Source of the DNA: Acidimicrobiia bacterium
GTDB lineage: Bacteria; Actinomycetota; Acidimicrobiia; Spongiisociales; UBA5794
Length of the DNA: 46,501 nucleotides
Reading direction: 5' to 3'
Assembly (NCBI GenBank): GCA_030064765.1
Contig: JASJEG010000003.1
Location: 1-46,501, forward strand
The position numbers were made by a program, and so were the translations under genes. Below are positions 12,426 to 29,243 of the stretch, in pieces; the first letter of the stretch is position 1; each line of letters starts with the position of its first letter. The notes under the pieces were generated by a model. That model was not told the DNA's origin and did no database searches. It saw only the letters and a list, made by a program, of their open reading frames with translations.

Positions 12426-12473
12426 CCGGTCTTCCTTCTACTTCATCCGCAGGCTGCCACCACCATTGTGCAG

Positions 12474-12490: not shown

Positions 12491-12518
12491 GTCAAGCGTC
12501 TCGGTCCCCGCCGGGAAC

Positions 12519-12548: not shown

Positions 12549-12564
12549 TCCGCAGAAGGGTGAC

Positions 12565-15201
12565 ATGCAACAGGACACTGCCGAGCACCGGCGCCTCGCC
12601 GCACGCAACCAGGGCACCGCAGACTGGGATCTGTGGGGTCCCTACCTTGCCTACCGGTCCTGGGGCACCGTTCGCGAGGACTACTCGGCCGACGGAACGG
12701 CCTGGAGTCACTTCCCGCACGACCACGCCCGCAGCCGTGTGTACCGGTGGAGCGAAGACGGCTTAGCCGGGATCAGCGATATCAATCAGTACCTCTGCTT
12801 CTCAGTGTCGCTTTGGAACGGCCGGGATCCGATCCTGAAGGAGCGCCTCTTCGGGCTGACCGGAAAGGAAGGCAATCACGGCGAGGATGTGAAAGAGGTG
12901 TACACCCACCTCGACGCAACCCCATCGCACAGCCGTTTGCAGTTCCTCTACCGGTATCCGCTGCGGGAGTTCCCCTATGCCGACCTCGTCGAAGGAAACC
13001 GGAGGCGGACGGTCGACGAGCGAGAGTATGAGCTAGAGGACACACCCGCCTTCGATGACGGCTTCTTCGATGTCCACATCACCTATTCGAAGGCTGCTCC
13101 AGACGACATCGCCATCACTATCGACGTCACCAATCGCAGCCCGGAGGAGGCTGCTTGCCACGTGCTGCCGACGCTCTGGTTTCGCAACACCTGGTCGTGG
13201 GGCTATCCGGCGGGTCCGATGGACGACGTCGCAGCTCGCCCCGCAATGAGCCTCGGCGCAGACGGCACCTCGGTCGTTGCCGAGCATCCCGCGCTGGGCC
13301 GCTATCACCTGTACGTGGACGAACCGGACCGCATCGTCTTCACAGACAACGAATCCAACAACGAGAGGCTGTGGGGAACACCAAACGAGGCACCTCACGT
13401 CAAGGATGCGTTCCATCGTATGTTGATCGACGGCGAGGAGCAGGCGGCAAACCCGCAACACGCCGGCACCAAATCTGCCAGCCTTCATGAGCTCGCAATC
13501 GGGGCAGGCGAGACCCGGTCGATACGGCTGCGACTATCAGCCCGCTCGCACCCCGAGCCGTTCGCCGACCACGACGTCATTCGGACCCAATGCGCCGCCG
13601 ATGCCGACGACTTCTATGCCGCGATCCAGCCCGCAGCTCTGAGCACTGAGGAGCGCCGCATTCAGCGCCAGGCCTACGCCGGCATGATCTGGACCAAGCA
13701 GCTCTACTACTTCGATATCGAGCAGTGGCTCGATGGTGATCCCGCCGGAATCAAGCCACCCGACTCTCGGAGATCGGGCCGGAACCGTGACTGGCGCCAC
13801 CTGAACAACTTCGACATCATCTCGATGCCCGATGCTTGGGAGTACCCCTGGTACGCCGCCTGGGATCTCGCCTTCCACTGCATTCCGCTAGCGCACCTCG
13901 ACCCATCCTTTGCCAAGGAGCAGATCGAGATGTTCACCCGCGAGTGGTATATGCATCCCAACGGGCAGCTCCCGGCATATGAGTGGGAGCTTGGCGATGT
14001 GAATCCTCCAGTTCATGCCTGGGGTGCCCGTCGGGTCTACGAGATCGATGCGGCGGCCAGCGGCACCCCCGATGTTGCCTATCTCAAACGGGTATTCCAC
14101 AAGCTTCTACTCAACTTCACCTGGTGGGTGAACCGCAAGGACGAGGACGACAACAACGTCTTCCAAGGCGGTTTCCTCGGGCTGGACAACGTCAGCGTCT
14201 TCAACCGGTCCGAAGACCTCCCCGGGGGAGGCCACCTCGACCAGTCCGACGGAACCGCATGGATGGCCTTCTACACCCTCGAGATGCTCGCCATCTCGCT
14301 CGAACTCGCCCGCTACGACGAGGTGTATGAGGATTTGGCTACCAAGTTCTTTGAGCACTTCTTGTCGATTGCGACGGCGATGAGTGCAACCGATCACTGC
14401 CTCTGGGATCCCGATGACGCGTTCTTCTACGACGTCCTGCGGCTGCCCGACGGCAGATCGATCCCGGTGAGCCTGCGCTCGATGGTGGGGTTGATCCCCG
14501 TACTGGCGGTTACGGTCATCGACCAAGAAACCATCGACCGCATGCCCGGATTCGCCAGGCGGATGGACTGGTTCCTCGAGCGACGGCCGCACTTGAGCGG
14601 CAACATCGCCAGCATCGAGGACACCGGAGAGGGAAGCCGCCATCTAGCTTCCATCCTCACTCCCGAACGTCTGCGCCAGGTGCTTCACTACATGCTGGAC
14701 GAGGATGAGTTCCTCTCTCCCTACGGGATCCGCTCGCTCTCGAAGTACCACAGCGACGATCCGTTCTCGCTGAGCGTCGACGGCTACACAGCTCGAGTCG
14801 GCTACGAGCCCGGCGAGTCTCTATCCGGGCTGTTCGGCGGCAACTCCAATTGGCGCGGGCCGGTTTGGTTCCCACTGAACTACATCCTGATCGAGTCGCT
14901 AGAAGCGTTCTACACGTACCTCGGTGATGACTTCAAAGTCGAATACCCGGTCGGCTCGGGCAACGACCTGAATCTGCACGAAGTGGCCATCGAGCTGCGC
15001 AAGCGCTTGGTTGGGCTGTTCCGGGCCGATGAGCAAGGCCGTCATCCATTCGATGGGGAGGACATCCCGGAGGTGAGACAGGAGCTCGTCTACTTCCATG
15101 AGTACTTCGACGGTGATACCGGTCGTGGGCTCGGCGCTGTACACCAGACCGGCTGGACCGGGTTGGTGACGGAGCTCATCAACGACCTTGCGGCTGACTG
15201 A
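12565..15201 (+). CDS. GH63-type (MGH1-like) glycoside hydrolase
   Basis: 878 residues, no signal peptide, so cytoplasmic. The N-terminal domain opens with AEHRRLAARNQGTADWDLWGPYLAYRSWGTVREDYS, followed by a beta-rich region. The (alpha/alpha)6 barrel contains PWYAAWDLAFHCIPLAHLDP (Trp433-Asp434; an Asp in a WD motif is the general acid in GH63) and late in the chain NWRGPVWFPLNYILIESL (from residue 762), a hallmark of the clan. Family members cleave alpha-glucosyl or mannosyl bonds, for example in mannosyl-oligosaccharide glucosidase and glucosyl/mannosylglycerate hydrolases; which one applies here cannot be seen. ATG follows AAGGGTG. Two palindromes upstream suggest sugar-responsive control. 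Confidence 0.82.
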   Translation: MQQDTAEHRRLAARNQGTADWDLWGPYLAYRSWGTVREDYSADGTAWSHFPHDHARSRVYRWSEDGLAGISDINQYLCFSVSLWNGRDPILKERLFGLTGKEGNHGEDVKEVYTHLDATPSHSRLQFLYRYPLREFPYADLVEGNRRRTVDEREYELEDTPAFDDGFFDVHITYSKAAPDDIAITIDVTNRSPEEAACHVLPTLWFRNTWSWGYPAGPMDDVAARPAMSLGADGTSVVAEHPALGRYHLYVDEPDRIVFTDNESNNERLWGTPNEAPHVKDAFHRMLIDGEEQAANPQHAGTKSASLHELAIGAGETRSIRLRLSARSHPEPFADHDVIRTQCAADADDFYAAIQPAALSTEERRIQRQAYAGMIWTKQLYYFDIEQWLDGDPAGIKPPDSRRSGRNRDWRHLNNFDIISMPDAWEYPWYAAWDLAFHCIPLAHLDPSFAKEQIEMFTREWYMHPNGQLPAYEWELGDVNPPVHAWGARRVYEIDAAASGTPDVAYLKRVFHKLLLNFTWWVNRKDEDDNNVFQGGFLGLDNVSVFNRSEDLPGGGHLDQSDGTAWMAFYTLEMLAISLELARYDEVYEDLATKFFEHFLSIATAMSATDHCLWDPDDAFFYDVLRLPDGRSIPVSLRSMVGLIPVLAVTVIDQETIDRMPGFARRMDWFLERRPHLSGNIASIEDTGEGSRHLASILTPERLRQVLHYMLDEDEFLSPYGIRSLSKYHSDDPFSLSVDGYTARVGYEPGESLSGLFGGNSNWRGPVWFPLNYILIESLEAFYTYLGDDFKVEYPVGSGNDLNLHEVAIELRKRLVGLFRADEQGRHPFDGEDIPEVRQELVYFHEYFDGDTGRGLGAVHQTGWTGLVTELINDLAAD

Positions 15202-15216
15202 CCGATTGGAGCTGCT

Positions 15217-15912
15217 CTACAGGCCCGCTAGTGGGAGTACCTCCGCCAGCGACTTGATCTCGTGGGTGATGATGTCGTCGGGCCCGGGCGTGTTTCCATT
15301 GGGGTTGTACCAGCAAGTGGAGATGCCGTAGTCGGCGCCACCTCTGATGTCGGAGGCGAGCCGGTCCCCCACTATCACCGCAGCGTCCTTGGGGGGGTTG
15401 CCGAGCAGGTCGAAGGTGATGTCGAAGATCCTCCTCCCAGGCTTCGTCGTGCCCACCTCTGCCGAGATGACGATGGCGTCGAAGTACTGCTCGATTCCGA
15501 GCCGGGCGATACGGGGGCGTTGCACTTCGCTCAGGCCGTTGCTGATCAGCGCAAGTGACACCCTTCCTGTCAACGCTTCGAGTAGCTCAATGGCGCCCGG
15601 GTATAGATCGCCGTAGGAGGCAAACCCAACTACGAAGTCCTCCGCCATCTGATCGGTGTCCCACCCACAACCCAGCTCATCAGCCATCAGCTCGAAACGC
15701 GTGGTCTTCACGTCCTTAGGCAGAATCTCGCCGCGCTCTGCGGCCGCCCACAGCCCCATGTTGATGCGGTTGTACGTGTCGAAGTATCGCATCGGGTCGG
15801 CGACGCCCTGGTTGCGCAGCGTCAGCTTGTAGGCCTCGATCTCCGACGTGTCGGAGTCGAGCAAGGTGTGATCGAAGTCAAGGAGGACTGTGGAGTAATT
15901 GCCTTTTGACAT
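15217..15912 (-). CDS. HAD-superfamily hydrolase, YjjG-like nucleotidase
   Basis: 231 residues from the ATG at 15912. HAD motif I is VLLDFDHTLLDSD (D-F-D-x-T, nucleophile Asp), motif II ALISNGLSEVQ, motif III KPGRRIFD and motif IV VIVGDRLASDIRGG. The YxxINxxLW-like stretch (TYNRINMGLWAAAERGEI) and overall length fit YjjG-type pyrimidine 5'-nucleotidases. The activity is dephosphorylation of nucleoside monophosphates, possibly including non-canonical ones. The ATG at 15912 has no clear Shine-Dalgarno, and the frame stays open upstream to a much better start at 16275 (see next entry), so the HAD domain could be made as part of a longer protein. Confidence 0.85.
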   Translation of the reverse strand: MSKGNYSTVLLDFDHTLLDSDTSEIEAYKLTLRNQGVADPMRYFDTYNRINMGLWAAAERGEILPKDVKTTRFELMADELGCGWDTDQMAEDFVVGFASYGDLYPGAIELLEALTGRVSLALISNGLSEVQRPRIARLGIEQYFDAIVISAEVGTTKPGRRIFDITFDLLGNPPKDAAVIVGDRLASDIRGGADYGISTCWYNPNGNTPGPDDIITHEIKSLAEVLPLAGL

Positions 15913-16275
15913 GGGGCGCCAGTGTGGCAGATCACGAGGGTGGGCGATCCAACTCCGTTCTTGCGGACACCTGACACCGCCCCCACCTATGGGCCTCAGA
16001 TCCGCCAAAACGGGGCGTCGAGACAGACCGGAGACCCCCTCGCGAGGGCCCCTGTGATCCGGCCTGGTGGTGCCGAGGACGGCTCCACCGCGATTCCGCT
16101 CCGATGACACTGCGACCTTCTCCGATCGAGCGGCGACAACGAGCGACCCGATGGCTGCGGCCAGGATCAGCCACGCCCAGGATGCGGCACCGTCGGTCGC
16201 CATCATGATCACCGAGTACACAATCACCAAGACGATGCTGATTGCTCCTGCTGTCAGTCGCTTGCTTGTTGCCAT
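15913..16275 (-). CDS. Small two-helix membrane ORF open in frame into the HAD hydrolase
   Basis: ATG at 16275 is preceded by AGGGAGG at ideal spacing. It opens MATSKRLTAGAISIVLVIVY followed by a second hydrophobic stretch (ASWAWLILAAAIGSLVVAA) and RSEKVAVSSERNRGG, which looks like a complete two-helix membrane protein. No stop follows: the frame continues through the dispersed hairpin element (15955-16060) and joins the HAD frame, giving a potential 352-residue product over 15217-16275. The linker (about 60 residues) looks non-coding. Either this is a real fusion created by loss of the stop, or two genes merely share a frame. Confidence 0.45.
15955..16060. repeat. Dispersed hairpin element, copy 2
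   Basis: CCGTTCTTGCGG (15955-15966) and CCGCCAAAACGG (16002-16013) are imperfect inverted arms. Between them lies GGGCCT (15991-15996); GACAGA follows at 16022-16027, and then a hairpin around the perfect 12-bp palindrome CCCTCGCGAGGG (16037-16048). Spacing of GGGCCT to CGCC is 12 nt, exactly as in copies 1 and 3. It lies inside the open frame joining the small membrane ORF and the HAD hydrolase. Confidence 0.65.
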
Positions 16276-16461
16276 GATGAACCTCCCTATGTTCAACTGG
16301 CCTGAACATACCGATGGCAATCGTGTCAACATGATCGATTGCCGGATTGGGCGCCCTGTGTCGGCCGAAACGGGCTGCCGCCGCGCACCCCTTGCTTGGC
16401 CACCGTGGATCTGGCACGGTCGGTAGCAGGAATTGCCGGCTGATACTCGTGTAATACGATC

Positions 16462-16467
16462 TAGAAT
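16462..16467 (+). promoter_or_regulatory. -10 box of MazEF-type module 2
   Basis: TAGAAT lies 6 nt before the antitoxin ATG at 16474, so transcription would start at the start codon (leaderless mRNA), as at the vapBC operon. No clear -35 at the usual distance. Confidence 0.4.
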
Positions 16468-16473
16468 CAGTGT

Positions 16474-16725
16474 ATGACAATGCTGAGTTTCAGGGCTGAC
16501 GACGACGAGGCCGCCGGTGCACAGCACTGGGCGGAACGACTTGGCATCCATCGTTCAGAGCTGCTCCGCGAGGCGCTTCATCGCCATCTCGTTCGCCTCC
16601 AGGCCGAGCACGAGATTGCAGCATGGACCGACCTCCCCCTTACCTCAGACGAAGCATCATTCGCAGAGGTAGCCGATTGGGGTCCGGCCGAAGACTGGTC
16701 GGATTGGGCCGATGCAGAGAGGTGA
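16474..16725 (+). CDS. Ribbon-helix-helix antitoxin (MazEF module 2)
   Basis: 83 residues. LSFRADDDEAAGAQHWAERLGIHRSELLREALHRHLVRL is a ribbon-helix-helix DNA-binding domain, with the strand LSFRA and helices after the DDDEAA and HRSELL turns. The C-terminus is strongly acidic and Trp-rich (EVADWGPAEDWSDWADAER), suited to blocking the MazF active site. The gene overlaps the toxin by 14 nt. ATG at 16480 would also be possible. A leaderless mRNA is suggested by the -10 box at 16462-16467. It is expected to repress its own promoter, but no strong palindrome is seen. Confidence 0.82.
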   Translation: MTMLSFRADDDEAAGAQHWAERLGIHRSELLREALHRHLVRLQAEHEIAAWTDLPLTSDEASFAEVADWGPAEDWSDWADAER

Positions 16726-17020
16726 AATCTGGTTCGCCGCGACGCCTGGTGGCGATCGGCCCGTGCTCATCCTGACCAGGGATCCGGTTGCGGACCGAAT
16801 CGGATCGGTGGTCGTGGCCGCATTGACGCGGGTCACCAGAGGACTTGTGTCGGAGCTCGAGTTGACACCCGAAAGCGATGGGGTTCCCACCGAGTGCGTG
16901 GCCAACTTCGACAACCTCCACACTTTGCCCCGGGAATCGCTGCGGCGACGAGTTGCTCAGTTGGGACCGGTCCGCATGGCTCAGGCCTGCAGTGCCCTTC
17001 GAGACGCGACGGGCTGCTGA
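16712..17020 (+). CDS. mazF: MazF-family endoribonuclease toxin (module 2)
   Basis: 102 residues. MQRGEIWFAATPGGDRPVLILTRDPVADRIGSVVVAALT is the canonical MazF start (RGEIWxxxxPGG-RPVLIL). ECVANFDNLHTLPRESL and ACSALRDATGC follow the family pattern, with the NxDNxxTxPK/R substrate-binding loop. It is an RNA-cleaving toxin, paired with the antitoxin it overlaps. The sequence differs from the first module, so the two probably arrived independently. Confidence 0.9.
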   Translation: MQRGEIWFAATPGGDRPVLILTRDPVADRIGSVVVAALTRVTRGLVSELELTPESDGVPTECVANFDNLHTLPRESLRRRVAQLGPVRMAQACSALRDATGC

Positions 17021-17034
17021 CGACAGCGCGATCC

Positions 17035-18057
17035 TCAGCTGTGGGCTGTGGCGGCGTGCTTGATGCCGTGTTTGGTGCTGGTGTCGTGCAACCGCTCGTA
17101 GCCGAGCTTGTTGAACGGACAGACTGCTACGCAGATAGAGCATCCGTCGTGAGTGCCGAAGTAGGGCAGACATTTGGCGTCGTCCGCACACGTGAAGCGC
17201 CCATCTTCGTGCAGGATGGGCTCCGCGTAGATGGCGTCGACCGGGCACTTGCGGACACAGAGGCGGCAGTGGTCGCAGAACTCCTCGATCCACTCGTGGG
17301 GGTTGTTCCCCTCGGGAATCGGAAGATTCTCGATACTCGTGAAGACAGCTGCGAGCCGCACTGTCGGCCCCATCTCCGGAGTAATGATTAGACCATGAAT
17401 GCCCCTGAAGCCAAGATGGGCGGCCTGTGCCAGCGGTGGGTAGAGGGCCATGCCGTTGAGGGGATGACCGGCGTGTGCGGAGTAGCCCTTATCCCTCAGG
17501 TAGCGCGCAACAGCGTTTGATACCTTGCCGAGTTGGTTGTATGTCTCGTGGACTGCAAGGCCACACGCTTTGCTGGGTGCGGTGTCGATTCTCTTCTTGT
17601 CCATCTCCATGGTGAGGACCACTGCATGCGGGTGCAGCACCGCCTTGCCTTTGAAGACGAACTTCGGATCGACCTCCGCATACCCAACGGACAGGGCTCC
17701 CTGCGATTTGGCAAACGACTCGAGGGCGGCCAGCCCTACAGAGTCGATTTCGGTGAGGGGGTTGAGTGGGTTGTCGGCCAACTCGACTACGGATGCCTTG
17801 ATTCCTCGCACCGAACCGATCATCTGTGGAATCGACTTAGGAATCCCAGGCGGGCGGTACGCCTCGGGAACCTCAGCAACACCACGCAGAATCTCGACCC
17901 TTACCGGGGCCGTGGGGCCTGCGAGCACCGCACCAGGCATCTCGACGACAGCGTCCTCATACCGCTGATGCATGCCCTCCATCTTCGGCATCATCCGGTG
18001 CATGATCCGTTTCATGAAGCGTTGTCGCCGAGTGAGGACCGGGGCTTGGCTTGTCAT
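17035..18057 (-). CDS. 4Fe-4S double-cluster protein (QueG/reductive dehalogenase-like C-terminus)
   Basis: 340 residues from the ATG at 18057, which overlaps the TetR stop by 4 nt. The C-terminus carries two cluster sites: CDHCRLCVRKCP (Cys261, 264, 267, 271) and Cys296 with CSICVAVCPFNK (Cys306, 309, 313). Arrangement and the CPxxAI / VCPFNK endings resemble epoxyqueuosine reductase and reductive dehalogenases. The N-terminal half does not show a cobalamin signature I can recognise. An uncleaved basic N-terminus (RRQRFMKRIMHRMMPK) is present, but there is no Tat signal. Probable role is electron transfer or reduction of an unknown substrate. The close link to a TetR regulator and an exporter suggests a detoxification unit. 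Confidence 0.75.
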   Translation of the reverse strand: MTSQAPVLTRRQRFMKRIMHRMMPKMEGMHQRYEDAVVEMPGAVLAGPTAPVRVEILRGVAEVPEAYRPPGIPKSIPQMIGSVRGIKASVVELADNPLNPLTEIDSVGLAALESFAKSQGALSVGYAEVDPKFVFKGKAVLHPHAVVLTMEMDKKRIDTAPSKACGLAVHETYNQLGKVSNAVARYLRDKGYSAHAGHPLNGMALYPPLAQAAHLGFRGIHGLIITPEMGPTVRLAAVFTSIENLPIPEGNNPHEWIEEFCDHCRLCVRKCPVDAIYAEPILHEDGRFTCADDAKCLPYFGTHDGCSICVAVCPFNKLGYERLHDTSTKHGIKHAATAHS

Positions 18058-18632
18058 GACTTGGCTCCGTATCTGTCGAGCCATCGATCGACATGGGCCT
18101 CCGCCCACTTTCGGTCGATGGGTGAATGCATAATCAGGGCGTTGAAGAAGACGGGAGCTCCGAGATCGTCGGCGAGGGTCTCCGGCTGCACTCCCTTCTT
18201 CACTCGTCCGTTGACAACCCCCTCCTCGATGACCCGGGCGGCCGCTTGACGACGTTCTGTCACAAAACGTGTCCGGACCGCGTCGAGAGCAGGGTCCCGG
18301 CGGGACTCGAGGATGAGCGCAGCTGCTACCGACCCGATCGGTTCCGAGCCGAGCAGGTCTCCTAGGTGGAGAACCAGCGAGACGAGATCCTCCCGCAGAT
18401 CGCCGGTTACCAGGGTATCAACCGGACCGACCCGGGCAGTCACGGCCTCGAGTAGAAGCTCCATTCGCTCAGGCCAATGCCGGTAGATCGTCGAACGGGC
18501 GACGCCACATCGTTGAGCAATCGCATCAATCGTGGCTCCGTTGAAGCCCCGATCGGCAATCACCTCAACAGCTGCCTCGAGGACCACTCGCCGCGTGTGT
18601 TCGATCCTGGGATCAACTCTCGTGGTTGCCAT
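18054..18632 (-). CDS. TetR-family transcriptional regulator
   Basis: 192 residues from the ATG at 18632. The frame extends to 18683, but the extra 17 codons lie in an operator-like palindrome (18641-18664), so the shorter start is preferred. The N-terminal helix-turn-helix is typical: IEHTRRVVLEAAVEVIADRGFNGATIDAIAQRCGVARSTIYRHWPER. The rest forms the ligand-binding helical domain. It should repress its own operon and perhaps the upstream exporter. It overlaps the 4Fe-4S gene by 4 nt and lies 64 bp after the MFS stop, same strand. Confidence 0.9.
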   Translation of the reverse strand: MATTRVDPRIEHTRRVVLEAAVEVIADRGFNGATIDAIAQRCGVARSTIYRHWPERMELLLEAVTARVGPVDTLVTGDLREDLVSLVLHLGDLLGSEPIGSVAAALILESRRDPALDAVRTRFVTERRQAAARVIEEGVVNGRVKKGVQPETLADDLGAPVFFNALIMHSPIDRKWAEAHVDRWLDRYGAKS

Positions 18633-18640
18633 GGGTTCAA

Positions 18641-18664
18641 CTATACAACAAAACTGTTGCATAG
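18641..18664 (-). promoter_or_regulatory. TetR operator-like palindrome
   Basis: CTATACAACA (18641-18650) and TGTTGCATAG (18655-18664) are inverted arms with one internal mismatch around AAAC, ending about 9 bp before the TetR start codon. A second TGTTGCAT half-site lies at about 18675-18682. This is a likely autoregulatory operator. Confidence 0.55.
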
Positions 18665-18696
18665 TGCTACAGAGGTGTTGCATTGACCGAGCACGA

Positions 18697-20106
18697 TCAG
18701 ATCGCCCGTCTGGAAGTGCGCGCCGCCGTGGCGCCCACCGTCAGGTTGCGCAGGGCGGTTTGAGCAGCCATGACTCGTTCCTGTGAAGCCTCCCACGCCG
18801 GATCGCGGGCTGCCCCAGTTCGTTTCGGCAGGCGTAGGAGAATGAGCACCACCAGCGCAGTCATCAGAATCAATGCTGCGGAAATGAAGAATGCGCCTTG
18901 CGGCGAGAGACGCGACGTGACGATGGTGACCAGCGCAGGTGCCAATAGGCTGCCCAAGCTTCCGACCGCCGTCTTGATGCCCATGGCTCGCGAACGATGC
19001 TCTTCCGGTGTGATGTCCAGGTAGGCGGCACTCAGTGCCGGGTTGACCAGAGCCTCGCCGAGCCCGGCGATGATGAAGGCGGCGATTATCACCCAGAAGG
19101 CATCCGCAACCATGAGTCCGGCGTACTGAGCCGAATGCAGCGCGAGGCCGACGATGAGAATTGGCTTTCGCCCAAAGCGGTCACTCGATCGACTGAGCGT
19201 CAAGCTCCCGATCAGCGTCGCCCAGCCATAACAACTGATCACCGCGCCAAACTGGGAAGTCGACCACTCCAGTTCGTCGAATACGTAGAACGGCAGTTGC
19301 GGATCGATGAAGAACCAGGCGAAGACCATGCTCAGATTGACGAAGAGCAACGTGCCAAAGGCCAGCAACGGATGCGGCAGGGAAGCCATGAAGGAGACGG
19401 ATGTTCCCTTCTCCTCCGGCACCAGTCGTGCGGCTCGCTTCTGGTGGAGGACGGCCCTCCGCCTCTTCTCACTCGTATGGGTTTCGGGAATGGCGAGGAA
19501 CGCAACCAGGAGGGTGACCAGAGCAATCCCAATCGATGCAAGGAAGGGCGGGCCGTAGCCCCATCTGTCGTAGAGCAGACCGCCCACGACCGGTCCAACG
19601 ATGAAGCCCGCCGACGTCCCGCCGCCGATGATGCCGATCCAACGGGCGCGCTCATCTCGGGGTGCGATGTCGGCGACGAGCCCCATCGTCGCCGGCCCGA
19701 GCCCCGCCGTCAGCGCCCCGGCTACGCCGCGAACGATGATGAATACCAGGGAGGTCGCCGCCAGGTAGTAGCCGGCGAAAGCGGCCGCAAACACTGCAAA
19801 TGAGCCGAGGATCAAGGGCCTCCTGCCGAACCTATCCGCCAGCAAGCCCATGAACGGAGCAGCGATCACGGCGGCCAGCGAATAGGCCATCACACTGAGC
19901 GCCAAGACCTCCACGCTGTCACCGAAGTCACCGATCTTCCGGGCGAAGAGCGGGAAGATCATGCCGTAGCTGGTCATCTGGAGAGCAGTGCAAACTGCCA
20001 GCAGGATGATGATCTTGCGGGCACGACGCGGGTCCATACCGGGCTTCACTACCCGCGTTGCCTGCACAACCATCCCCATGTGGTCGTGACGCCTTGGCCG
20101 ATTCAC
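18697..20106 (-). CDS. MFS transporter (DHA1-like exporter)
   Basis: 469 residues from a GTG at 20106, overlapping the SnoaL-like stop (GTGA). Twelve hydrophobic segments are visible. The loop 2-3 motif GLLADRFGRRPLI (motif A of drug:H+ antiporters) and a second copy SRSSDRFGRKPIL between helices 8 and 9 confirm the major facilitator fold. GPVVGGLLYDRWGYGPPF resembles motif C of exporters. A charged central loop (about 230-260) separates the halves. Substrate unknown. Translation is coupled to the upstream gene, and a TetR gene follows, typical for an efflux unit. Confidence 0.88.
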   Translation of the reverse strand: MNRPRRHDHMGMVVQATRVVKPGMDPRRARKIIILLAVCTALQMTSYGMIFPLFARKIGDFGDSVEVLALSVMAYSLAAVIAAPFMGLLADRFGRRPLILGSFAVFAAAFAGYYLAATSLVFIIVRGVAGALTAGLGPATMGLVADIAPRDERARWIGIIGGGTSAGFIVGPVVGGLLYDRWGYGPPFLASIGIALVTLLVAFLAIPETHTSEKRRRAVLHQKRAARLVPEEKGTSVSFMASLPHPLLAFGTLLFVNLSMVFAWFFIDPQLPFYVFDELEWSTSQFGAVISCYGWATLIGSLTLSRSSDRFGRKPILIVGLALHSAQYAGLMVADAFWVIIAAFIIAGLGEALVNPALSAAYLDITPEEHRSRAMGIKTAVGSLGSLLAPALVTIVTSRLSPQGAFFISAALILMTALVVLILLRLPKRTGAARDPAWEASQERVMAAQTALRNLTVGATAARTSRRAI

Positions 20107-20570
20107 ACCCTGGCTCCGAGTTCCACAAGCAGTGTGGCCAGATCCATGTAGATCGTCTCGCGCTGGATGAGTCCCCCGCTCACGTCATAGACAGTCATGC
20201 CCCGGAACTGAATGGTTCTCCCTGTGGGATCGAGCTGCTCCGGAAATACTGGTGGACCCAGCGGGCCGGTGTGAGTACCGGTGAAAACCCACTCCGTCAC
20301 GACGACGTCCTCAGCGGCGATCGTGCGCTTCACCTCGTAGTCCGCCTCGTCGAAGGCGCCTAGCCAGATCGGGAAGAACCCGGCGCTTTCCTCTGCGGGC
20401 ACGGGCGGGTTCTCGAACGCATCGCCGTAGACCCAATCCACGACGTAGTCCGCAGCATGCAGCGATCTTATCGTTTCGAAGTCCTGCACAGCCATGGCCG
20501 CGATGAGCTGCGAGACAACCTCGAAAGCAGAGGGATCGCCTGATTCGTCGCTCTTCCTCCGGCTCCCCAC
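20103..20570 (-). CDS. SnoaL-like / NTF2-fold polyketide-cyclase-type protein
   Basis: 155 residues from GTG at 20570, 4 bp after the stop of the upstream reductase. The pattern VVSQLIAAMAVQDFETIRSLHAADYVVDW, then FDEADYEVKRTIAAEDVVVTEWVFTGTHTGPLG and FRGMTVYDVSGGLIQRETIYMD, is the cone-shaped NTF2-like fold of SnoaL ester cyclases and related lyases. Such proteins bind small hydrophobic molecules; many are catalytic, many not. The tight coupling to a reductase and an exporter suggests action on the same compound. The exact function cannot be read from sequence. Confidence 0.78.
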   Translation of the reverse strand: MGSRRKSDESGDPSAFEVVSQLIAAMAVQDFETIRSLHAADYVVDWVYGDAFENPPVPAEESAGFFPIWLGAFDEADYEVKRTIAAEDVVVTEWVFTGTHTGPLGPPVFPEQLDPTGRTIQFRGMTVYDVSGGLIQRETIYMDLATLLVELGARV

Positions 20571-20574
20571 TAGC

Positions 20575-21843
20575 TCATCTCGAAGCTTCGACGGAATGCA
20601 ACGGTTCGAGTTCGAAGCTCAACCCGGCATGTGCCTTGACGCGGTCCAGAAGCAGATCGCCGAATGCCGACGCCGGGGTCCAAGATCCGCCACCTACCGG
20701 GATCTGCTCTGAGTCCTCCGCCAGACACAGGGCCGACTCAGCAATCATCCGGCTGGTGGATTCGGTGCCGGGGTCACCTTCCCCGTGAAGCCGGGCCTTG
20801 ATGATCCTGCCATCGGCGGTCTTCCCTACCAGGACAGCACCCCACTCCCCATTCTCACGGGTCTCAGCATCGGGGCCTTCACCCGGCTTGGGCAGTACAT
20901 GCTTCGTCATCAGGGGCCGCGTCAGCGGAATCGCCGTTGCCACGATCAGGCCGGCAAACTTCAGAGCCCCTCCCTTGGCCTTCAGCCAACCCACCGGCCC
21001 GCTCCCGACCATGTGGGATTCAGGGCCGTACATGAAATCCTCGCCATACGGGTAGCCCAACAGGGCGTGGCTGCGGCGGACGATCTTGGTGTTCATCGGC
21101 CCCATGAAGAACGGCTTGGTCCAAACACCGAGGTCCTCGTCGTACACGACCTCGGTCGACATCATCTTGTTTGGTTGGTCCGGTCCGTGGCGCATTCCAT
21201 CCGGGTTCAGGCTGTACGGCTGCGTCATGCACTCGCTGATGAATTTGTCGCCGCTGTGCTCCATTCCGTAGATGAGACAGCCCGCAGTCCCGCCGCTGAA
21301 GCCACCGCTGAACTCGTCGATTGCCATCTTGATATGCCGGCATGGCTCACCGAACCGCTCTATCGCCGCCCTCTGTAGGAAGAGGACACCCAGGTCTGAT
21401 GGAACGGAGTCCATGCCGCATGCATGCACGATGCGGGCACCGGTCTGTTCGGCTTCGGCCTGATGGGTGTCGATCATCATCCGGATCCAGTGCGCCTCGG
21501 CGGCCAGATCGCAGTAATCGGTACCAGTGCGGACACATGCTCCGAGGAGCTCAGAACCGAACATCGCATACGGCCCGACCACTGAACACACCACGCGCGT
21601 CCGGGCGGCCAGGGCCTCCAAAGAGGCCGCATCATGGCTATCCGCAATGACTATCGGAATCTCTGCGGCTTCAGGCCCGAGTCCCGACCGGACCTTCTCC
21701 ACCTTGGCTTGGTTTCGCCCGCCCAGGGCCCAGCGCAGCTCACTGCCGCCTCGGGTGCGGGCTGCCATATGGTGGGCTACCCGCCGTCCCGTCGAACCCG
21801 TGGCTCCCCACACAACAATGTCGAACTCGCGGTCACGTTTCAT
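20575..21843 (-). CDS. Saccharopine dehydrogenase-like NAD(P) oxidoreductase
   Basis: 422 residues. The N-terminal Rossmann motif VVWGATGSTGRRVAHHMA (about 10-27) and TRVVCSVVGPYAMFGSELLGACVRTGTDYCDLAAE are those of the saccharopine-dehydrogenase NADP-binding family, which includes mycobacterial trans-acting enoyl reductases. HACGMDSVPSDLGVLFLQ and FSGGFSGGTAGCLIYGM are characteristic of that sub-group. It is probably an NAD(P)H-dependent reductase of a lipid or polyketide-like substrate rather than a lysine-pathway enzyme. The ATG follows AAGGAC. It is the first gene of the coupled minus-strand set running to the exporter. Confidence 0.82.
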   Translation of the reverse strand: MKRDREFDIVVWGATGSTGRRVAHHMAARTRGGSELRWALGGRNQAKVEKVRSGLGPEAAEIPIVIADSHDAASLEALAARTRVVCSVVGPYAMFGSELLGACVRTGTDYCDLAAEAHWIRMMIDTHQAEAEQTGARIVHACGMDSVPSDLGVLFLQRAAIERFGEPCRHIKMAIDEFSGGFSGGTAGCLIYGMEHSGDKFISECMTQPYSLNPDGMRHGPDQPNKMMSTEVVYDEDLGVWTKPFFMGPMNTKIVRRSHALLGYPYGEDFMYGPESHMVGSGPVGWLKAKGGALKFAGLIVATAIPLTRPLMTKHVLPKPGEGPDAETRENGEWGAVLVGKTADGRIIKARLHGEGDPGTESTSRMIAESALCLAEDSEQIPVGGGSWTPASAFGDLLLDRVKAHAGLSFELEPLHSVEASR

Positions 21844-21904
21844 GGTCAGTCCTTCTGCTTCCTGCTCTCACTGTCTTCCGCTCTCGTGCCGACGCTGATC
21901 ATGA

Positions 21905-21982
21905 TCACCTCGTCCGCTTGCGTAGGAGCAGCGCGGACAGCAGTGCCGCCAGCCCAACGAGAACGACCGTCGGCGCTACCTA
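21905..21982 (-). other. In-frame membrane-tail extension behind a TAG stop
   Basis: Directly after the TAG of the nitroreductase gene the same frame reads VAPTVVLVGLAALLSALLL followed by RKRTR and TGA: one hydrophobic helix with a positive stop-transfer end. The chance of a neat helix with an Arg/Lys end in frame is low, which suggests an amber mutation or readthrough. Confidence 0.5.
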
Positions 21983-22516
21983 CTCGAGGTCGCCGGGGCC
22001 TCCGGGTCCCGTCACGGCTTCGCCAAGCTCGATCTCGACCACCTCATAGCGGCGGTCCGCCTGCACCCCGAGGGAGGCGATCTGCTCATCGCTCGCTGCG
22101 GTTAGATCCAGGCCGGGATGAGCGAGCTTGGCTGCAAAGCCAGAGCGAATCAGGACCTGTCGGACGAGTGCGATTCGTCGTTGTTCGTCGGTCACCATTT
22201 CGCCATGACCGGCCACTCTGCGGCCGTCGGGTAGCCACACTTCGCACCGAGGGTCCGCCTGCAGATTGAGCAGCCAGTGAGTGGTGGCGCCGAATCCCGC
22301 AAGACACTGGACGGTGTTGCCTTCGAGGGCGAAGTTGAGCGGAGCCCGGCGAAGTTGGCCCGACTTCCTGCCGGTTGTGGTCAGGACCATGATGTAGCCC
22401 AGTGTTGGATCTGCGACGTGCGATCCCAAACCCAGTCGCCACATCAGAAGCATTCGTCGGTTGACCCATCGAAAGAAGCCACGCAGCTGACCCTCACGTG
22501 CTCCAGTGAGATCCAT
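21980..22516 (-). CDS. Deazaflavin (F420)-dependent nitroreductase family protein
   Basis: 178 residues. LGYIMVLTTTGRKSGQLRRAPLNF, AGFGATTHWLLNLQADPRCEVWL and RRVAGHGEMVTD are the split-barrel signatures of Ddn-type F420-dependent nitroreductases (the G-R-K-S-G loop binds the deazaflavin). The length is normal for the family. It ends GGPGDLE, then TAG (21980-21982). The same frame then continues for 24 codons coding a hydrophobic helix and RKRTR before TGA at 21905-21907, so a C-terminal membrane anchor may have been cut off or may be reached by readthrough. Confidence 0.88.
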   Translation of the reverse strand: MDLTGAREGQLRGFFRWVNRRMLLMWRLGLGSHVADPTLGYIMVLTTTGRKSGQLRRAPLNFALEGNTVQCLAGFGATTHWLLNLQADPRCEVWLPDGRRVAGHGEMVTDEQRRIALVRQVLIRSGFAAKLAHPGLDLTAASDEQIASLGVQADRRYEVVEIELGEAVTGPGGPGDLE

Positions 22517-22582
22517 TAGTCCTCCATTGCTGTCAAGTTCGTTGATGCGAGGTTCTCCCCAGCACCCAAAGCGGCCCTGCTA

Positions 22583-22843
22583 CTACCCGAGCCGGCCGAG
22601 CTCGCGATCGATCTGTGCCTCGCTGATCTCCGCAGGCCGGATGTAGACGCTAGCTCCGTGGGCGATGACCCCGATGCCCCACCCCAGCGTTGGCCATAGT
22701 GGCCAGGGATACGTAGAGGACGAAGTGGTCGCCCAAATGAGGAACAGGAATGCAATCACGGCGAGATAGATGGAAGCATGGACCCAGAAGCCACGCTTGG
22801 CTCGGATACGCCGAATAGCCCGTTCCCTTTGATCATCAGTCAC
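22583..22843 (-). CDS. 2TM-domain small membrane protein
   Basis: 86 residues from the GTG at 22843, which has AGGAGAG at good spacing; the frame is open to 22912. The sequence VTDDQRERAIRRIRAKRGFWVHASIYLAVIAFLFLIWA, then PWPLWPTLGWGIGVIAHGASVY, is the 2TM family: a basic helix, two membrane helices with a short loop and a conserved His/Gly in helix 2. The C-terminal EAQIDRELGRLG is the usual tail. The domain is often found alone or fused to histidine kinases; function unknown. It is divergent from the SulP transporter, with a shared 239-308 bp promoter region. Confidence 0.75.
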   Translation of the reverse strand: MTDDQRERAIRRIRAKRGFWVHASIYLAVIAFLFLIWATTSSSTYPWPLWPTLGWGIGVIAHGASVYIRPAEISEAQIDRELGRLG

Positions 22844-22923
22844 TGGTCTCTCCTTCTCTCCGGCTTGTGCCATGAGTGAATCGTCCGGCACGGGAGGGGG
22901 GTTAGGCATCACCCTCCCTCACT

Positions 22924-22936
22924 ACCCCCCGGGGTG
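22924..22936. promoter_or_regulatory. Near-palindromic 13-mer in the 2TM/SulP intergenic region
   Basis: ACCCCCCGGGGTG, a near-perfect palindrome, lies in the divergent gap between the 2TM gene and the SulP gene. The identical 13-mer occurs at 29244-29256, beside the end of the MalT-type regulator gene and upstream of the small-protein/flavodoxin pair. A common regulator site is possible. The rest of this 300-bp gap is G/C-tract rich with no further gene. Confidence 0.4.
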
Positions 22937-23151
22937 TTCCCCGTCTCAGCGACTGGACCCCGCATCGCCACGTGGGCGAGTCGATTGCCGACGAGAGCTT
23001 CACCCGGAGGCCGCCCCTGGGTGCACTCGGCTGCGGACGAGATGACTGTACGATCCTCAGCTGGGCCAATCTCGCAAGCCTCGAGAGATGGGGGGATCGT
23101 GTGGACAGGGGCTCATCGGAGCCAAGTGTGAACCAACGTGGAGGCATAGAT

Positions 23152-24816
23152 GTGACGCGGTTCGCTCCCGGGCTGGACCAGCTCCGCCGCTACGAGCGCT
23201 CCTGGCTCAGGCCTGACCTCCTTGGCGGGTTGACCGTGGGTGCGATGCTGATCCCGCAGTCGATGGCGTATGCCGAGCTTGCCGGCATGCCTCCGGAGGC
23301 CGGCTTCTACGCCGTGCTACTCGCTCTCTTCGCTTATGCCATCTTCGGAAGTTCGCGACACCTCGGTGTCGGCCCTGAGCCGGGGACAGCGATCCTCGCC
23401 GCCACCGCGGTTGGGGGCATGGCCGCCGGGGATCCGATCCGCTACGCAGCGCTCATGGCGGCCCTCGCCCTGGTCGTGGCCGCCGTGTGTTTGGTGGCCG
23501 GACTATTCCGTCTGGGCTTTCTCGCCGACCTGCTCTCGAGACCCGTCCTTGTCGGCTACATCACCGGAATCGGCCTTACCTTGATCAGCAGCCAGATCGC
23601 CAAGGTGACCGGTATCCCAATCCAAGAGGACGGCTTCTTCAGCCGTTTCGCCGAGATGCTCTCAATGCTGGACACCATCGATCCTGCAACCATCGCGATG
23701 GGTACGGCCTCTCTGGCGCTGATCCTGGCGCTGCGGCGATGGCCTGCGGTGCCCGGGGCGTTGATCGCTGTTGCACTGGCAACAGGCGTGACCGCGTTGT
23801 TCTCCCTGGCCGAACACGGAATTGCGGTAGTCGGTGACATTCCCGCCGGTCTACCGGCACTCGGCCTACCCGGTATTGCGGGCAGCGATATGGTGGCGTT
23901 GATCCCAGCCGCACTCGGCATCGCGGTAGTCGGCTACTCCGACAACGTGCTGACCGCAAGATCGATAAGCGCCGAGCGCGGCTACCGCATCGACTCAAAC
24001 CAGGAGCTTCTTGCTCTCGGAGCGAGCAATCTGATGAGCGGCATATCCCAAGGATTCCCGATCTCTTCCAGCGCCAGCCGATCATTCGTGCCGGCATCAA
24101 TCGGAACCCATACCCAATTGACCAGCATCGTGGCCGCCGTCTTCGTGACCGCCACACTCCTGTTCCTACGACCGGTCCTCGCCAACTTCCCGCAGGCCGC
24201 CCTCGGGGCAGTCATCCTGGCGGCCGCCATCGCCATCATCGACGTCTCCGGATTCCGGGAGCTGTGGCGATTGAGCCGGGCCGAGTTCCTCTTGGCGATC
24301 GCTGCGGCGCTCGGGGTCATGATCTTCGATGTGCTCACCGGGGTTCTCATCGCCGTTGCGTTGTCCGCCGCGGTTGCGCTGTGGCGCATTGCCCGTCCCA
24401 GCGATGCCGTGCTCGGTGGCGCCTCGGAACTCGATGGTTGGGTAGCGGTTGACGACTTTCCCACTGCCCGTCCACTGCCGGGACTAATGGTGTACCGCTT
24501 TGATGCGCCTCTGTTCTTCGCCAACGCCGAGTGGTTCCGCGAACGGGTCGAGCAAGCTTTGGACATCAATCCGGGAGAGGAGGAATGGATCATCTTCGAT
24601 TTCGACGGGATCGGCTCCGTCGACACCACCGCAGTGGCGATGTTGGAGGAACTCCTGGCCGAGCTTCCGAGCCTCGGGATCCACGTCGTCGGCATCGCCC
24701 GGGCTAACCATGACACAATCGACCGACTCCAACGCGCCGGCCTCGTGGCGCCCGACGGAGCAATCAGGACCTTCGCCACCATCAACCAAGCCGTCGCCGA
24801 ATTCCGAAGTCGCTGA
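23152..24816 (+). CDS. SulP-family anion transporter with STAS domain
   Basis: 554 residues from GTG at 23152 with GGAGG 8-9 nt upstream; the frame is open from 22972, but that part looks non-coding. The SulP signature is present: LRPDLLGGLTVGAMLIPQSMAYAELAGMPPEAGFY, then GPEPGTAILAATAV and NQELLALGASNLMSGISQGFPISSSASRS. About 12 or more membrane segments follow. The C-terminal STAS domain (VYRFDAPLFFANAEWFRERV to DFDGIGSVDTTAVAMLEELL) is complete. These proteins move sulfate, bicarbonate or other anions, often with H+ or Na+. The substrate cannot be told from sequence; the family name reflects sulfate permease homology. Confidence 0.9.
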   Translation: MTRFAPGLDQLRRYERSWLRPDLLGGLTVGAMLIPQSMAYAELAGMPPEAGFYAVLLALFAYAIFGSSRHLGVGPEPGTAILAATAVGGMAAGDPIRYAALMAALALVVAAVCLVAGLFRLGFLADLLSRPVLVGYITGIGLTLISSQIAKVTGIPIQEDGFFSRFAEMLSMLDTIDPATIAMGTASLALILALRRWPAVPGALIAVALATGVTALFSLAEHGIAVVGDIPAGLPALGLPGIAGSDMVALIPAALGIAVVGYSDNVLTARSISAERGYRIDSNQELLALGASNLMSGISQGFPISSSASRSFVPASIGTHTQLTSIVAAVFVTATLLFLRPVLANFPQAALGAVILAAAIAIIDVSGFRELWRLSRAEFLLAIAAALGVMIFDVLTGVLIAVALSAAVALWRIARPSDAVLGGASELDGWVAVDDFPTARPLPGLMVYRFDAPLFFANAEWFRERVEQALDINPGEEEWIIFDFDGIGSVDTTAVAMLEELLAELPSLGIHVVGIARANHDTIDRLQRAGLVAPDGAIRTFATINQAVAEFRSR

Positions 24817-24885
24817 CTGCCGTCATTCCCCCCCAGGCGAGGTGGGCAAGAGAAAGCTGCGGGTTAGTTGTGTCGGGGGGTTCAC

Positions 24886-25674
24886 CTAGGCAGCGGCGTT
24901 GTGAACGCCGGCGATCCGCGCGGCGACGACGTACGCCAACCAGCCCCAGACAAGGCCTGCGATCGCTCCGGCGATGACGTCCCAAGCTGTATGGACCTCA
25001 AGCAGCGTGCGGCTTGCTGCGATGGCGAGCGCCCAAACCGGTATCACGTAGAGGGTTGCAACGCGTCGCCAGCCGGAGAGCCAGGACGAGCCGATGGCAG
25101 CAAGCAGGGCGGCGAAGGTGACTGCCGCAGTCGTGTGTCCCGAGGGGAAGGAGTAGCCGGTCTCGTGGACCCAGTGGGCCCGGACCAGCGAAGACAGTTG
25201 TGGGGTCGATTCCTCGGTCAGACGTTCTCGCAGAACGCCTCGCCGGGCCTCCTTGTCGCCGACGGCATACAACGTCTCAGCGTCGGGGAAGTCCGAGCCC
25301 AGCACTCCCGTCTCGGCCAGCGTCACAATGTTGGGTCGCTCGATGGCAATGGCCGGCTTGACCACCTGCTCGTTGAGTTGGCCGTTGCCGGCTAGCGCGA
25401 CGACCATCACCAATGCCATCGCTGCCGCTTCCCGCACCCGCCTTTGCGCCGGGAGCCCGCGGCGCGCGACCAATGTGACGATCACAACGATCGATATTGG
25501 CGTCATCAGAGTCCAGCTCGCAGTGTCGGTGAGCCGTACCACTGCATCCGCAAACCACGTGTCGAGCGAGATGCGTGGCAGCAGCGGGATCAGCAAGAAG
25601 CCAAGCACCAGACCGAGCACGAGCAGGCGCTTGGGGTCGACTCGGGGTCTTGCGGCCGGGGTGCCTATTGACAT
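24886..25674 (-). CDS. PAP2-family membrane phosphatase
   Basis: 262 residues with about six membrane helices. The three PAP2 catalytic motifs are present: K-x5-R-P at 107-114 (KPAIAIERP), PSGH at 177-180 and SR-x5-H-x3-D at 221-232 (SRTLLEVHTAWD). Substrates are usually lipid phosphates such as undecaprenyl pyrophosphate or phosphatidic acid; which one is unclear. The loop between motifs 1 and 2 is longer than usual and polar (about 120-165). It converges on the SulP gene with a 69-bp gap. Confidence 0.9.
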   Translation of the reverse strand: MSIGTPAARPRVDPKRLLVLGLVLGFLLIPLLPRISLDTWFADAVVRLTDTASWTLMTPISIVVIVTLVARRGLPAQRRVREAAAMALVMVVALAGNGQLNEQVVKPAIAIERPNIVTLAETGVLGSDFPDAETLYAVGDKEARRGVLRERLTEESTPQLSSLVRAHWVHETGYSFPSGHTTAAVTFAALLAAIGSSWLSGWRRVATLYVIPVWALAIAASRTLLEVHTAWDVIAGAIAGLVWGWLAYVVAARIAGVHNAAA

Positions 25675-26609: not shown

Positions 26610-27575
26610 TCACACGGTCCCTCGCCCGCCGACGGACGGCTGCAGACCTGCCACTAGTTTCCGCGCTTCGGCCTCAGCCGCGCTGTCGTACTCGAAGCCC
26701 AACCGGTTCGCCGTCCGTGGGCCCAACTCTCCGAACAGGTCCATCGTGGTTGCGAGTGCAGTCCAGACTTCTGAGTCGTCGTAGCGCGCAAATGCCTTGC
26801 GCAGACCGGCAAGGACGCCCGGATCGGCCCACTCCTCGAGGAACCGCCCGCGGAACCACGGATCACGACCCGCGGCCGCTGCGTCCCATTCCAACAACTG
26901 ACGCAGGTGCTCCTTGAGCATGCCATCGCAGCAGCCCTTGGCCCACCACAGCTCACCTCTCCGCAGATGCTTCCCAGTCCAAACGGTGTGGTACCAGAAC
27001 TCGGAGCACAACTCTGCGAAGGCTCCAGCATCGGGTTTCGGCAACTGTGCAGGTTCACCCGTCGACAGGTCGAGGTCGGCAATGCCTTGCGCCCATCCAT
27101 CCTTGTCGACGAGGATGCGGAACCCGCGTCCGAAGGCTATTGCGGCCACACCCGGGGCGTGCTCCATCAGACCATCAGCATGCTCAGGAGTCATGAAGGC
27201 GAAGTCGACATCAAGACCACCGGCGAATAGGACCCTCAGCTCCGGCCCGCCTCCACCTGGGTTTCCTGCCACGAATGCGATCTTCGGTTCACCGACTCGT
27301 GCCAGCCACGTGCGTTCGTCGATGAAGCGACCGATGTCGGAGGTGATCACGACAACATCGAGGTCGGCCCACTCATCAGCAGGGTGATCGGTGCGGGCGC
27401 GGGAGCCGATGACCACGGCAGAACGAACAGCTGGATCGTCCTCAGCCCACGCTGTGACTCTCTCCTCTAGGCGTGCGTACCCGTCGACGATCAAGTCCGC
27501 GTCAGTTCGGTGTGGCGCACCATCCGCGCCGTGGCCTGTTTGGCCTCGACCGTCGGCCTTCGAGTCATGTCCCAT
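26610..27575 (-). CDS. ANT(6)/AadE-like nucleotidyltransferase
   Basis: 321 residues. VRSAVVIGSRARTDHPADEWADLDVVV contains the polymerase-beta-type GS-x9-DxD nucleotidyltransferase motif, and ELRVLFAGGLDVDFAFM the third acidic position. LCSEFWYHTVWTGKHLRRGELWWAKGCCDGMLKEHLRQLLEW matches the helical half of streptomycin 6-adenylyltransferases. It may modify an aminoglycoside or a natural small molecule. Chromosomal location and lack of mobile context suggest an intrinsic enzyme rather than acquired resistance. ATG is preceded by AGAAGGGA. Confidence 0.8.
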   Translation of the reverse strand: MGHDSKADGRGQTGHGADGAPHRTDADLIVDGYARLEERVTAWAEDDPAVRSAVVIGSRARTDHPADEWADLDVVVITSDIGRFIDERTWLARVGEPKIAFVAGNPGGGGPELRVLFAGGLDVDFAFMTPEHADGLMEHAPGVAAIAFGRGFRILVDKDGWAQGIADLDLSTGEPAQLPKPDAGAFAELCSEFWYHTVWTGKHLRRGELWWAKGCCDGMLKEHLRQLLEWDAAAAGRDPWFRGRFLEEWADPGVLAGLRKAFARYDDSEVWTALATTMDLFGELGPRTANRLGFEYDSAAEAEARKLVAGLQPSVGGRGTV

Positions 27576-27613
27576 GCGAGTCCCTTCTCTGCGTGTGTTC
27601 CACGTTGCGGTGG

Positions 27614-28477
27614 CTAGTGGGCAAAGCCGCCCTGTTCATCCCGCGGCATACCGAACCAGTCGTCGAGCGTGATGGCGGGCGCGCCGTAGAGCTCGTTGGC
27701 TATCTCAGGCTCACCAAATTCGCCGGCCGTGTCGAGATATCCGATCAGCTCAGCGACCTCGGCGAGCTCGGTGTTGCGGATCAGCTTCGCCAGCAGCCGC
27801 GCCTGCCAGACCTTCAGGTGAACCACCCGAGCCTCCGGGTAGCAGGTGGCTGCGAAGCGATCCATGGCATCACCGATCGTGACCCCTTCGGGGCCGTACA
27901 CGAAGAGCCTCTGCCCGAGCGCCCGGCCGTCCTCGTAGGACGCGGCGACCATCCGCCCGAAGTCGGCTGCTGCAAACCAGTGCAACTGTGGCGGGTTCTT
28001 GCCGTCCACCGAGAGAGCCCATTTGCCCCCGCGAACGAAGTTCTGCAGCGTCTCCATGACCCAGGTCGGGCAGAAGATCGCATACGGGAGACCGCTATCC
28101 CGCACCAGCTGCTCGGTGCGCATCTTCACGTCGACCCTGTGAAACCACCGCAGCTCTTCGCTGAGCGTTGTGGCCGAGACGTAGCCGAGGCGACCGAGGT
28201 TGCCGTCTGCCACCTCGATCACATTCTTCGTTGCGATGTACTCAGTTGCCGGCGTCAGGTTGATGTGAACGGCGTCGCACCCCTGCATCGCCGACCTAAC
28301 GTCATCGATGTCCGTCGCCGATCCCTGGGTGACTTCGACAGCGCCGCCGAACATCGTGTGTGCTTTATCGACGCTGCGGGTGAGGATCCGCACCGCTTGG
28401 CCGCCCTCTGTCAGCCGATTGACAACCGGCCGCCCCAGCAGGCCCGTCGCGCCAATGACCAGGATTCGATCGAACAT
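27614..28477 (-). CDS. NAD(P)-binding NmrA/SDR-like protein
   Basis: 287 residues. The Rossmann motif ILVIGATGLLGRPVVNRL (5-22) and early RILTRSVDKA (30-39) are those of atypical short-chain dehydrogenases of the NmrA type. The middle has GRLGYVSATTL and a region equivalent to the catalytic zone, but the YxxxK motif of classical SDRs is not evident. It may be a sensor or an isoflavone-reductase-like enzyme. The C-terminus (KVWQARLLAKLIRNTELAEVAELIGYLD) is helical. ATG follows AAGGGG. It is on the same strand as the flavodoxin gene (38-bp gap) and the ANT-like gene. Confidence 0.8.
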   Translation of the reverse strand: MFDRILVIGATGLLGRPVVNRLTEGGQAVRILTRSVDKAHTMFGGAVEVTQGSATDIDDVRSAMQGCDAVHINLTPATEYIATKNVIEVADGNLGRLGYVSATTLSEELRWFHRVDVKMRTEQLVRDSGLPYAIFCPTWVMETLQNFVRGGKWALSVDGKNPPQLHWFAAADFGRMVAASYEDGRALGQRLFVYGPEGVTIGDAMDRFAATCYPEARVVHLKVWQARLLAKLIRNTELAEVAELIGYLDTAGEFGEPEIANELYGAPAITLDDWFGMPRDEQGGFAH

Positions 28478-28515
28478 CGCTCAGCCCCTTCGGTTTCAGA
28501 ATATGAGGTGGTCGT

Positions 28516-28929
28516 CTACCCCAGGCGCTGGACCCAGTCGCCGAACCCATCCGCTGCTACCGGCCCGCGAGACTTGAACGACCCGGTGACGTTGGCTCCG
28601 CGGCCTTCCAGGCTCGTGGCCATCTTGGGGAGCATTCCACCCGTCGCCAGCTTGTACGTGCAGAACACTGCGGCCGGTTTGCCGTCGAGGTTGCCGAGAC
28701 GACCGATGAAGTCCATCGTCTCCTTCGTGGCATGCTGGAGAATGACGTACACGCCCTTGCACCAGCTCCCGACACAGATCGCATCGGCCTCACTCACGAT
28801 CGCCGGATCTGCGTCTTGAACGGAGCCGACGGTGCATTGATGCCCGGCCGCCCGGACCACTTCTGCCATTGCCTCAGCCACCGCCTTGGTTGTACCGGTC
28901 TTGCTATCGAATACGATCGCTACGTTCAT
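28516..28929 (-). CDS. Flavodoxin-family protein
   Basis: 137 residues. IVFDSKTGTTKAVAEAM (5-21) is the FMN phosphate-binding loop (S-x-T-G-T-T) of flavodoxins. SEADAICVGSWCKGVYVILQHATKETMDFI and KPAAVFCTYKLATGGMLPKMAT correspond to the isoalloxazine-binding loops. It should carry electrons through FMN, possibly for one of the neighbouring reductases. The start codon overlaps the stop of the preceding small gene (ATGA). Confidence 0.85.
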   Translation of the reverse strand: MNVAIVFDSKTGTTKAVAEAMAEVVRAAGHQCTVGSVQDADPAIVSEADAICVGSWCKGVYVILQHATKETMDFIGRLGNLDGKPAAVFCTYKLATGGMLPKMATSLEGRGANVTGSFKSRGPVAADGFGDWVQRLG

Positions 28930-29192
28930 TGGCCGTTCTCCTTGTCATGGTCGCGGGACGCCGGTGGATCAACCTCGAATCGGAGCACCTCGATACCCAG
29001 ACTGCGGAGCAGATCGAGAGTGCTGTGCAACTGCGACTGATCGAGCAGGCCACCACTCAGCACCGTTCCGGCCGGGATAGCCTCTTGTTCGATATCGGTG
29101 AGGCCGAGATGGAAGTCATCATCCAGTCGTCCGTTGACCCAGATACGGAATTGCCGATCGGCCTGCCGGTGATCACTGTGTTGCGGGTCCAT
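28926..29192 (-). CDS. Small actinobacterial-type protein (GLLDQSQLH motif)
   Basis: 88 residues. The middle reads FRIWVNGRLDDDFHLGLTDIEQEAIPAGTVLSGGLLDQSQLHSTLDLLRSLGIEVLRFEV. The DQxxLHxxLxxLRxLGIxxL ending is a pattern I recall from many small actinobacterial proteins of unknown function. No membrane segment. It is translationally coupled to the flavodoxin gene and follows the MalT-type regulator by 69 bp, so it may be part of the regulator's target operon. Confidence 0.65.
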   Translation of the reverse strand: MDPQHSDHRQADRQFRIWVNGRLDDDFHLGLTDIEQEAIPAGTVLSGGLLDQSQLHSTLDLLRSLGIEVLRFEVDPPASRDHDKENGQ

Positions 29193-29243
29193 GGTCCCGA
29201 GTATCCAGGCAGCGAGGGTGGTGCGACATCCCCCGGCCGGCAG

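Follow-up and report, generated by a model that had tools for sequence, protein, structure and literature searches.

Ddn and Fqr are mycobacterial F420H2-dependent (mena)quinone reductases of the FDOR-A group (PF04075, TIGR00026). PMC3567243 and PMC8498797 report that Ddn is membrane-associated and reduces quinones with F420H2, and that Ddn-type enzymes reduce menaquinone using F420H2. According to PMC3567243, Ddn probably reaches the membrane via an amphipathic N-terminus. The gene described here shares its domain and its fold with these enzymes. It lies in a 46,501-nucleotide stretch of an Acidimicrobiia bacterium contig (JASJEG010000003.1, hereafter the window), and an in-frame TAG separates its body from a predicted C-terminal membrane anchor. 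As far as the available text of the open-licence literature goes, no description of the C-terminal tail of this subfamily was found. The TAG itself most probably reflects a commonplace mutation of recent date, or else a fault of the assembly, rather than a novel regulatory device.

Translation of the reverse strand over 21905–22516 gives 178 codons, the TAG, 24 further codons (VAPTVVLVGLAALLSALLLRKRTR) and a TGA (Table 1). The tail consists of 19 hydrophobic residues followed by RKRTR, and its best hydrophobic 15-mer has a mean Kyte-Doolittle value of 2.89. The original prediction, made from the letters of the sequence, had placed an in-frame TAG, a hydrophobic 19-residue helix, RKRTR and a TGA at these positions, and translation bears out each of them. 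It had further held that the frame and the charge pattern are hard to obtain by chance, a view in agreement with a six-frame scan of the window, which covered 2157 stop triplets. When an open downstream stretch of 15–45 codons, a 15-mer with a mean Kyte-Doolittle value of at least 2.4 and a net charge of at least +3 in the last six residues were demanded, a single triplet qualified, namely this TAG. We regard family homology as a stronger test of the reality of the tail than the scan of stop triplets; the family profile spans the TAG and also aligns the tail.

Table 1. Features of the locus, in window coordinates.
Feature	Position	Strand	Basis
178-codon ORF, F420H2-dependent quinone reductase-like (PF04075, FDOR-A / Ddn type)	21983..22516	-	Pfam and fold match of the modelled intact orthologue
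In-frame TAG, codon 179; TGG (Trp) in homologues	21980..21982	-	Homologue codon comparison
24-codon remnant of a predicted C-terminal membrane-anchor tail, hydrophobic helix and RKRTR	21908..21979	-	24/24 residues as in G003:C69
TGA, presumed ancestral stop of the full-length gene	21905..21907	-	Same TGA in G003:C69 and G000:C199
Saccharopine dehydrogenase-like oxidoreductase (PF03435), downstream neighbour, intact	20575..21843	-	100% identity to G003:C69 over 422 aa
2TM-domain membrane protein (PF13239), upstream neighbour, intact	22583..22912	-	76% to G003:C69, 86% to G000:C199
Tract divergent from G003:C69, flanked on each side by an exactly identical block (11534-21863, 24088-25448)	21864..24087		Comparison with G003:C69

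The body of the ORF belongs to Pfam family PF04075 (47.7 bits, E 2.1e-12, cut-off 22) and marginally misses the cut-off of TIGR00026 (46.2 against 46.35 bits), a model that all 17 rows of our homologue alignment (A1) match at E ≤0.01. The nearest solved structures by sequence are those of Ddn and its relatives, with 10 distinct PDB sequences at E ≤0.001. An AlphaFold2 model of an intact orthologue (L035), built from 41 sequences, has a mean pLDDT of 88.1 and a pTM of 0.79. It consists of a mostly β core that closes with a final strand (residues 158–167), a linker, and a separate helix (residues 180–202). A Foldseek comparison with the PDB revealed Ddn (3r5l) as the best match (E 2.2e-08, TM 0.76 by target), and the L035 model displays the split β-barrel, Ddn-like fold. 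The window ORF is thus a predicted F420H2-dependent quinone-reductase-like enzyme, for which binding of F420H2 and reduction of quinones are anticipated. "Nitroreductase", the term used in the original prediction, holds as the drug-activation name of the family, but the nearest characterised enzymes, of the Ddn type, are F420H2-dependent (mena)quinone reductases, and the wording is corrected here. Because the last strand and the helix are separate in the model, truncation at residue 178 is predicted to cost only the helix and to spare the whole fold. The single C-terminal helix is found in the intact relatives, as modelled for L035, and is missing from the TAG-terminated product of the window.

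The motif P-G-D-L-x-W immediately precedes the tail in the 17 homologues of alignment A1. The profile of A1 was scanned against 71 sources (the window, L034–L042 and L052–L112), and the 71 hits, many of which are one gene fetched twice, were collapsed by identical last 60 residues into 49 distinct sequences, the window included. Codon 179 is TGG in 46 of them, two of which (L103 and L107) were found by a wider motif pattern and inspection; it is TAG in the window alone, and the remaining two sequences have neither the motif nor the tail. Tails are therefore present in 47 of the 49 if the untranslated remnant of the window is counted. The original prediction had proposed such an orthologue alignment as a check for a sense codon at the TAG position, and had named as contrary evidence any orthologues that end at the same point with no helix downstream. 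No such orthologues were found among the close relatives; the two tailless homologues are distant, come from Anaerolineae bins and end several residues earlier (L080, 1986–2465, and L081, 1986–2462, neither with a tail nor with P-G-D-L-x-W).

The named relatives belong to Acidimicrobiia and other actinobacterial bins, Chloroflexota, one Armatimonadetes bin, and bins named only "bacterium". An 86% identical homologue with TGG (L057 / L110, 1–408) sits at a contig end, in a bin assigned to a different family (Ww501, G118), and is possibly misbinned or transferred. A search of 138 genomes of the order, in which the best 23 or fewer candidates per genome were scored and absences are soft, gave 33 matches in 29 genomes at E 1e-25 among the matches listed. 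Stops are counted in two of these 33: the TAG of the window, and in G005:C145 a TGA with which the gene there normally ends. Across 396 genomes of the phylum, members at E ≤1e-40 were found in 2, among the best 8 or fewer candidates scored per genome; the tailed form appears to be rare in the phylum, with absences in these genomes again soft.

The closest relative of the gene is located on a 31,533-base contig (G003:C69), shows 96% protein identity, and carries TGG at codon 179. All 24 residues of its tail match those of the window, and the underlying codons differ once, synonymously. A further copy, on contig G000:C199 of the bin to which the window belongs, has a body of 94% identity and also TGG, but its tail has diverged, with differences at 29 of 78 bases in codons 179–204. 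The context of codon 179 reads GAG TAG GTA in the window, GAG TGG GTC in C69 and AAG TGG GTA in C199. A sense codon is one base away in both relatives and the rest of the gene is intact, as is characteristic of a recent nonsense mutation. When the changes are polarised by C199, those of the body on the window branch number 17 that are synonymous and 3 that alter an amino acid, and the replacement of W179 by a stop is the only change noted in the tail. Because the changes in the body are mostly synonymous, the gene was constrained until recently, with no older decay.

In our estimate, a recent single-base nonsense mutation has a probability of roughly two in three; the F420H2-dependent quinone-reductase-like gene is intact in other respects, and the TAG is known from the assembled sequence. 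One G-to-A transition would have converted TGG, the codon of Trp179 in P-G-D-L-x-W, into TAG. This reading is supported by a complete and conserved body, by a stop that falls beyond the final strand of the fold, by a tail and an original stop that are still in frame, and by relatives that keep both the Trp and the tail. TAG terminates 12 of the 26 long ORFs of the window, a count of mechanical calls rather than curated genes that includes the codon-179 ORF, and it therefore acts as a normal stop. Because TGG is retained, and the tail is the same, in the strain-like relative nearest to the window, the TAG allele would be young and is probably segregating among strains; nonsense alleles segregate ordinarily in bacterial populations. 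By analogy with Ddn, the intact tail would be a C-terminal membrane anchor that keeps the enzyme near the membrane quinone pool, and the TAG allele would give rise to a soluble enzyme that lacks this anchor. The original prediction had offered a recent amber mutation, programmed readthrough and a sequencing error as options; the distribution of TGG, TAG and tailless sequences (46, the window only, and two) favours the first, the second is left without support, and the third is retained as a rival.

Against a nonsense mutation, the gene is embedded in a mosaic tract that borders 10,330 identical bases, a setting in which assembly faults are likelier, and an intact tail with low divergence of the body would also be expected from readthrough. 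The basic C-terminus is, in addition, unusual for a tail that crosses the membrane with a cytosolic body, and the anchoring is a prediction. With a cytosolic body, several basic residues at the end of the tail disfavour crossing; the helix may sit within the bilayer or span it only partly. The short motif, the helix and the basic end together recall the layout of C-terminal sorting signals.

A comparison of the window with G003:C69 reveals the mosaic character of the surroundings. The two are exactly identical over 11534–21863, differ densely over 21864–24087, are identical again over 24088–25448, and diverge anew from 25449. Over positions 1–19000 the identity is 99.8%, with differences bunched at 1019–1251 and 9109–9209 and single ones at 5258 and 5389, so that the window from 1 to 25730 alternates between kilobase identical blocks and SNP tracts. 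Positions 26884–39659 are 98% identical to another contig of the same genome (G003:C5). Taken in 60-base blocks, the gene-bearing tract of the window resembles C69 more closely at some places and C199 more closely at others. The pattern is what strain recombination, or haplotype switching during assembly, would be expected to leave, and because the diverged tract adjoins 10,330 identical bases, one or the other touched the gene.

The same pattern bears on an error of assembly or consensus, in which haplotypes present together were joined or averaged into one contig and no living cell carries the TAG. We rank this second, as possible but rather improbable. The source is a fragmented bin of 242 contigs (77.87% complete, 3.94% contaminated), and the exact blocks that flank dense differences, with C69-like and C199-like patches between them, would fit such an origin. 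However, the TAG is found in neither sampled haplotype: C69 and C199 both have TGG, switching between those two alone therefore cannot create it, and an extra base error is required. The neighbouring ORFs in the tract are, moreover, intact. The contig is a strain mosaic, on which single-base oddities need reads.

Part of contig C199 (L034, 1127–5322 and 6240–12000) is a 77–93% similar, rearranged version of the 18.7–32 kb region of the window, in the same bin, and is perhaps the bin's own homologue of that region. A REP-like palindromic repeat of 46 bases is located at 32088–32133 (+) of the window, and consists of TTCTGGCG, a variable inner stem-loop, and CGCCAAAA. Copies number 23 in the window's bin, 12 in G003 and 0–2 per genome in the 19 others that were searched; reversed, the pattern gave 1 hit across all 21 genomes. 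The inner core varies by lineage; the copy of the window is identical to G003:C5:5205-5250, while among the 23 copies of the bin the core differs in 21. We infer that the window contig derives from the lineage of G003 via misbinning or recent transfer, C199 being the bin's own homologue. The second copy on C199 (94%, with an intact tail) was considered as compensating for the truncated one and was rejected: the window contig resembles the lineage of G003 and the C199 region is mostly 77–83% homologous, so the two copies may belong to different cells. The window also contains a giant ORF at 32259–46499 (-), with 4746 codons and open at the window end, that comprises about 41 DUF7507/DUF11 repeats together with SdrD_B and Big_9 domains.

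Programmed or suppressed amber readthrough would allow a single gene to make a soluble as well as a membrane form: leaky decoding of the TAG in the window's strain, at the invariant Trp codon that starts the anchor, would yield both a soluble and a tail-anchored enzyme. We regard this as very unlikely. The tail is intact and in frame past the TAG, and its sequence is identical to that of the TGG-bearing relative, but a recent mutation would give the same picture. The stop at codon 179 is not conserved, as it occurs in no other homologue (46 TGG of 49), and TAG is commonly used as a stop within the window. No tRNA with a CUA anticodon was found among the 24 tRNA loci of the 77.87% complete genome, and no special RNA structure is apparent in the 101 nt that begin just before the TAG (an unremarkable z-score of 0.12). 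A tRNA locus with the anticodon tag was examined as a candidate amber suppressor and discarded, as it is a tRNA-Leu(UAG) that reads CUA codons. Reassignment of TAG to an amino acid in the lineage, for which the in-frame position of the TAG alone speaks, is largely refuted and has a negligible probability, given that TAG ends 12 of the 26 long ORFs of the window, that the homologues use TGG at codon 179, and that a normal tRNA-Trp(CCA) is present while a CUA tRNA was not found among the 24 loci.

As a nonsense allele, the stop is ordinary and of low interest; the conserved anchor that it exposes is of moderate interest. The locus points to a predicted and conserved C-terminal anchor, with a near-invariant P-G-D-L-x-W, in an F420H2-dependent quinone-reductase-like subfamily of Acidimicrobiia and Chloroflexota. 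In contrast to Ddn, this subfamily bears a C-terminal helix after P-G-D-L-x-W, and the copy in the window has lost it. C-tail-anchored proteins (E. coli ElaB; the synthetic series of PMC6794478; PMC6389858), likewise possess a single C-terminal hydrophobic helix with no domain downstream. What sets the present case apart is its anchored domain, a predicted F420 enzyme, together with a short helix whose hydrophobicity is often modest and a membrane location that is predicted. Ordinary segregating nonsense alleles show the same single TGG-to-TAG transition, intact relatives and no further decay, whereas the TAG of the window removes the tail alone and leaves the enzyme domain complete.
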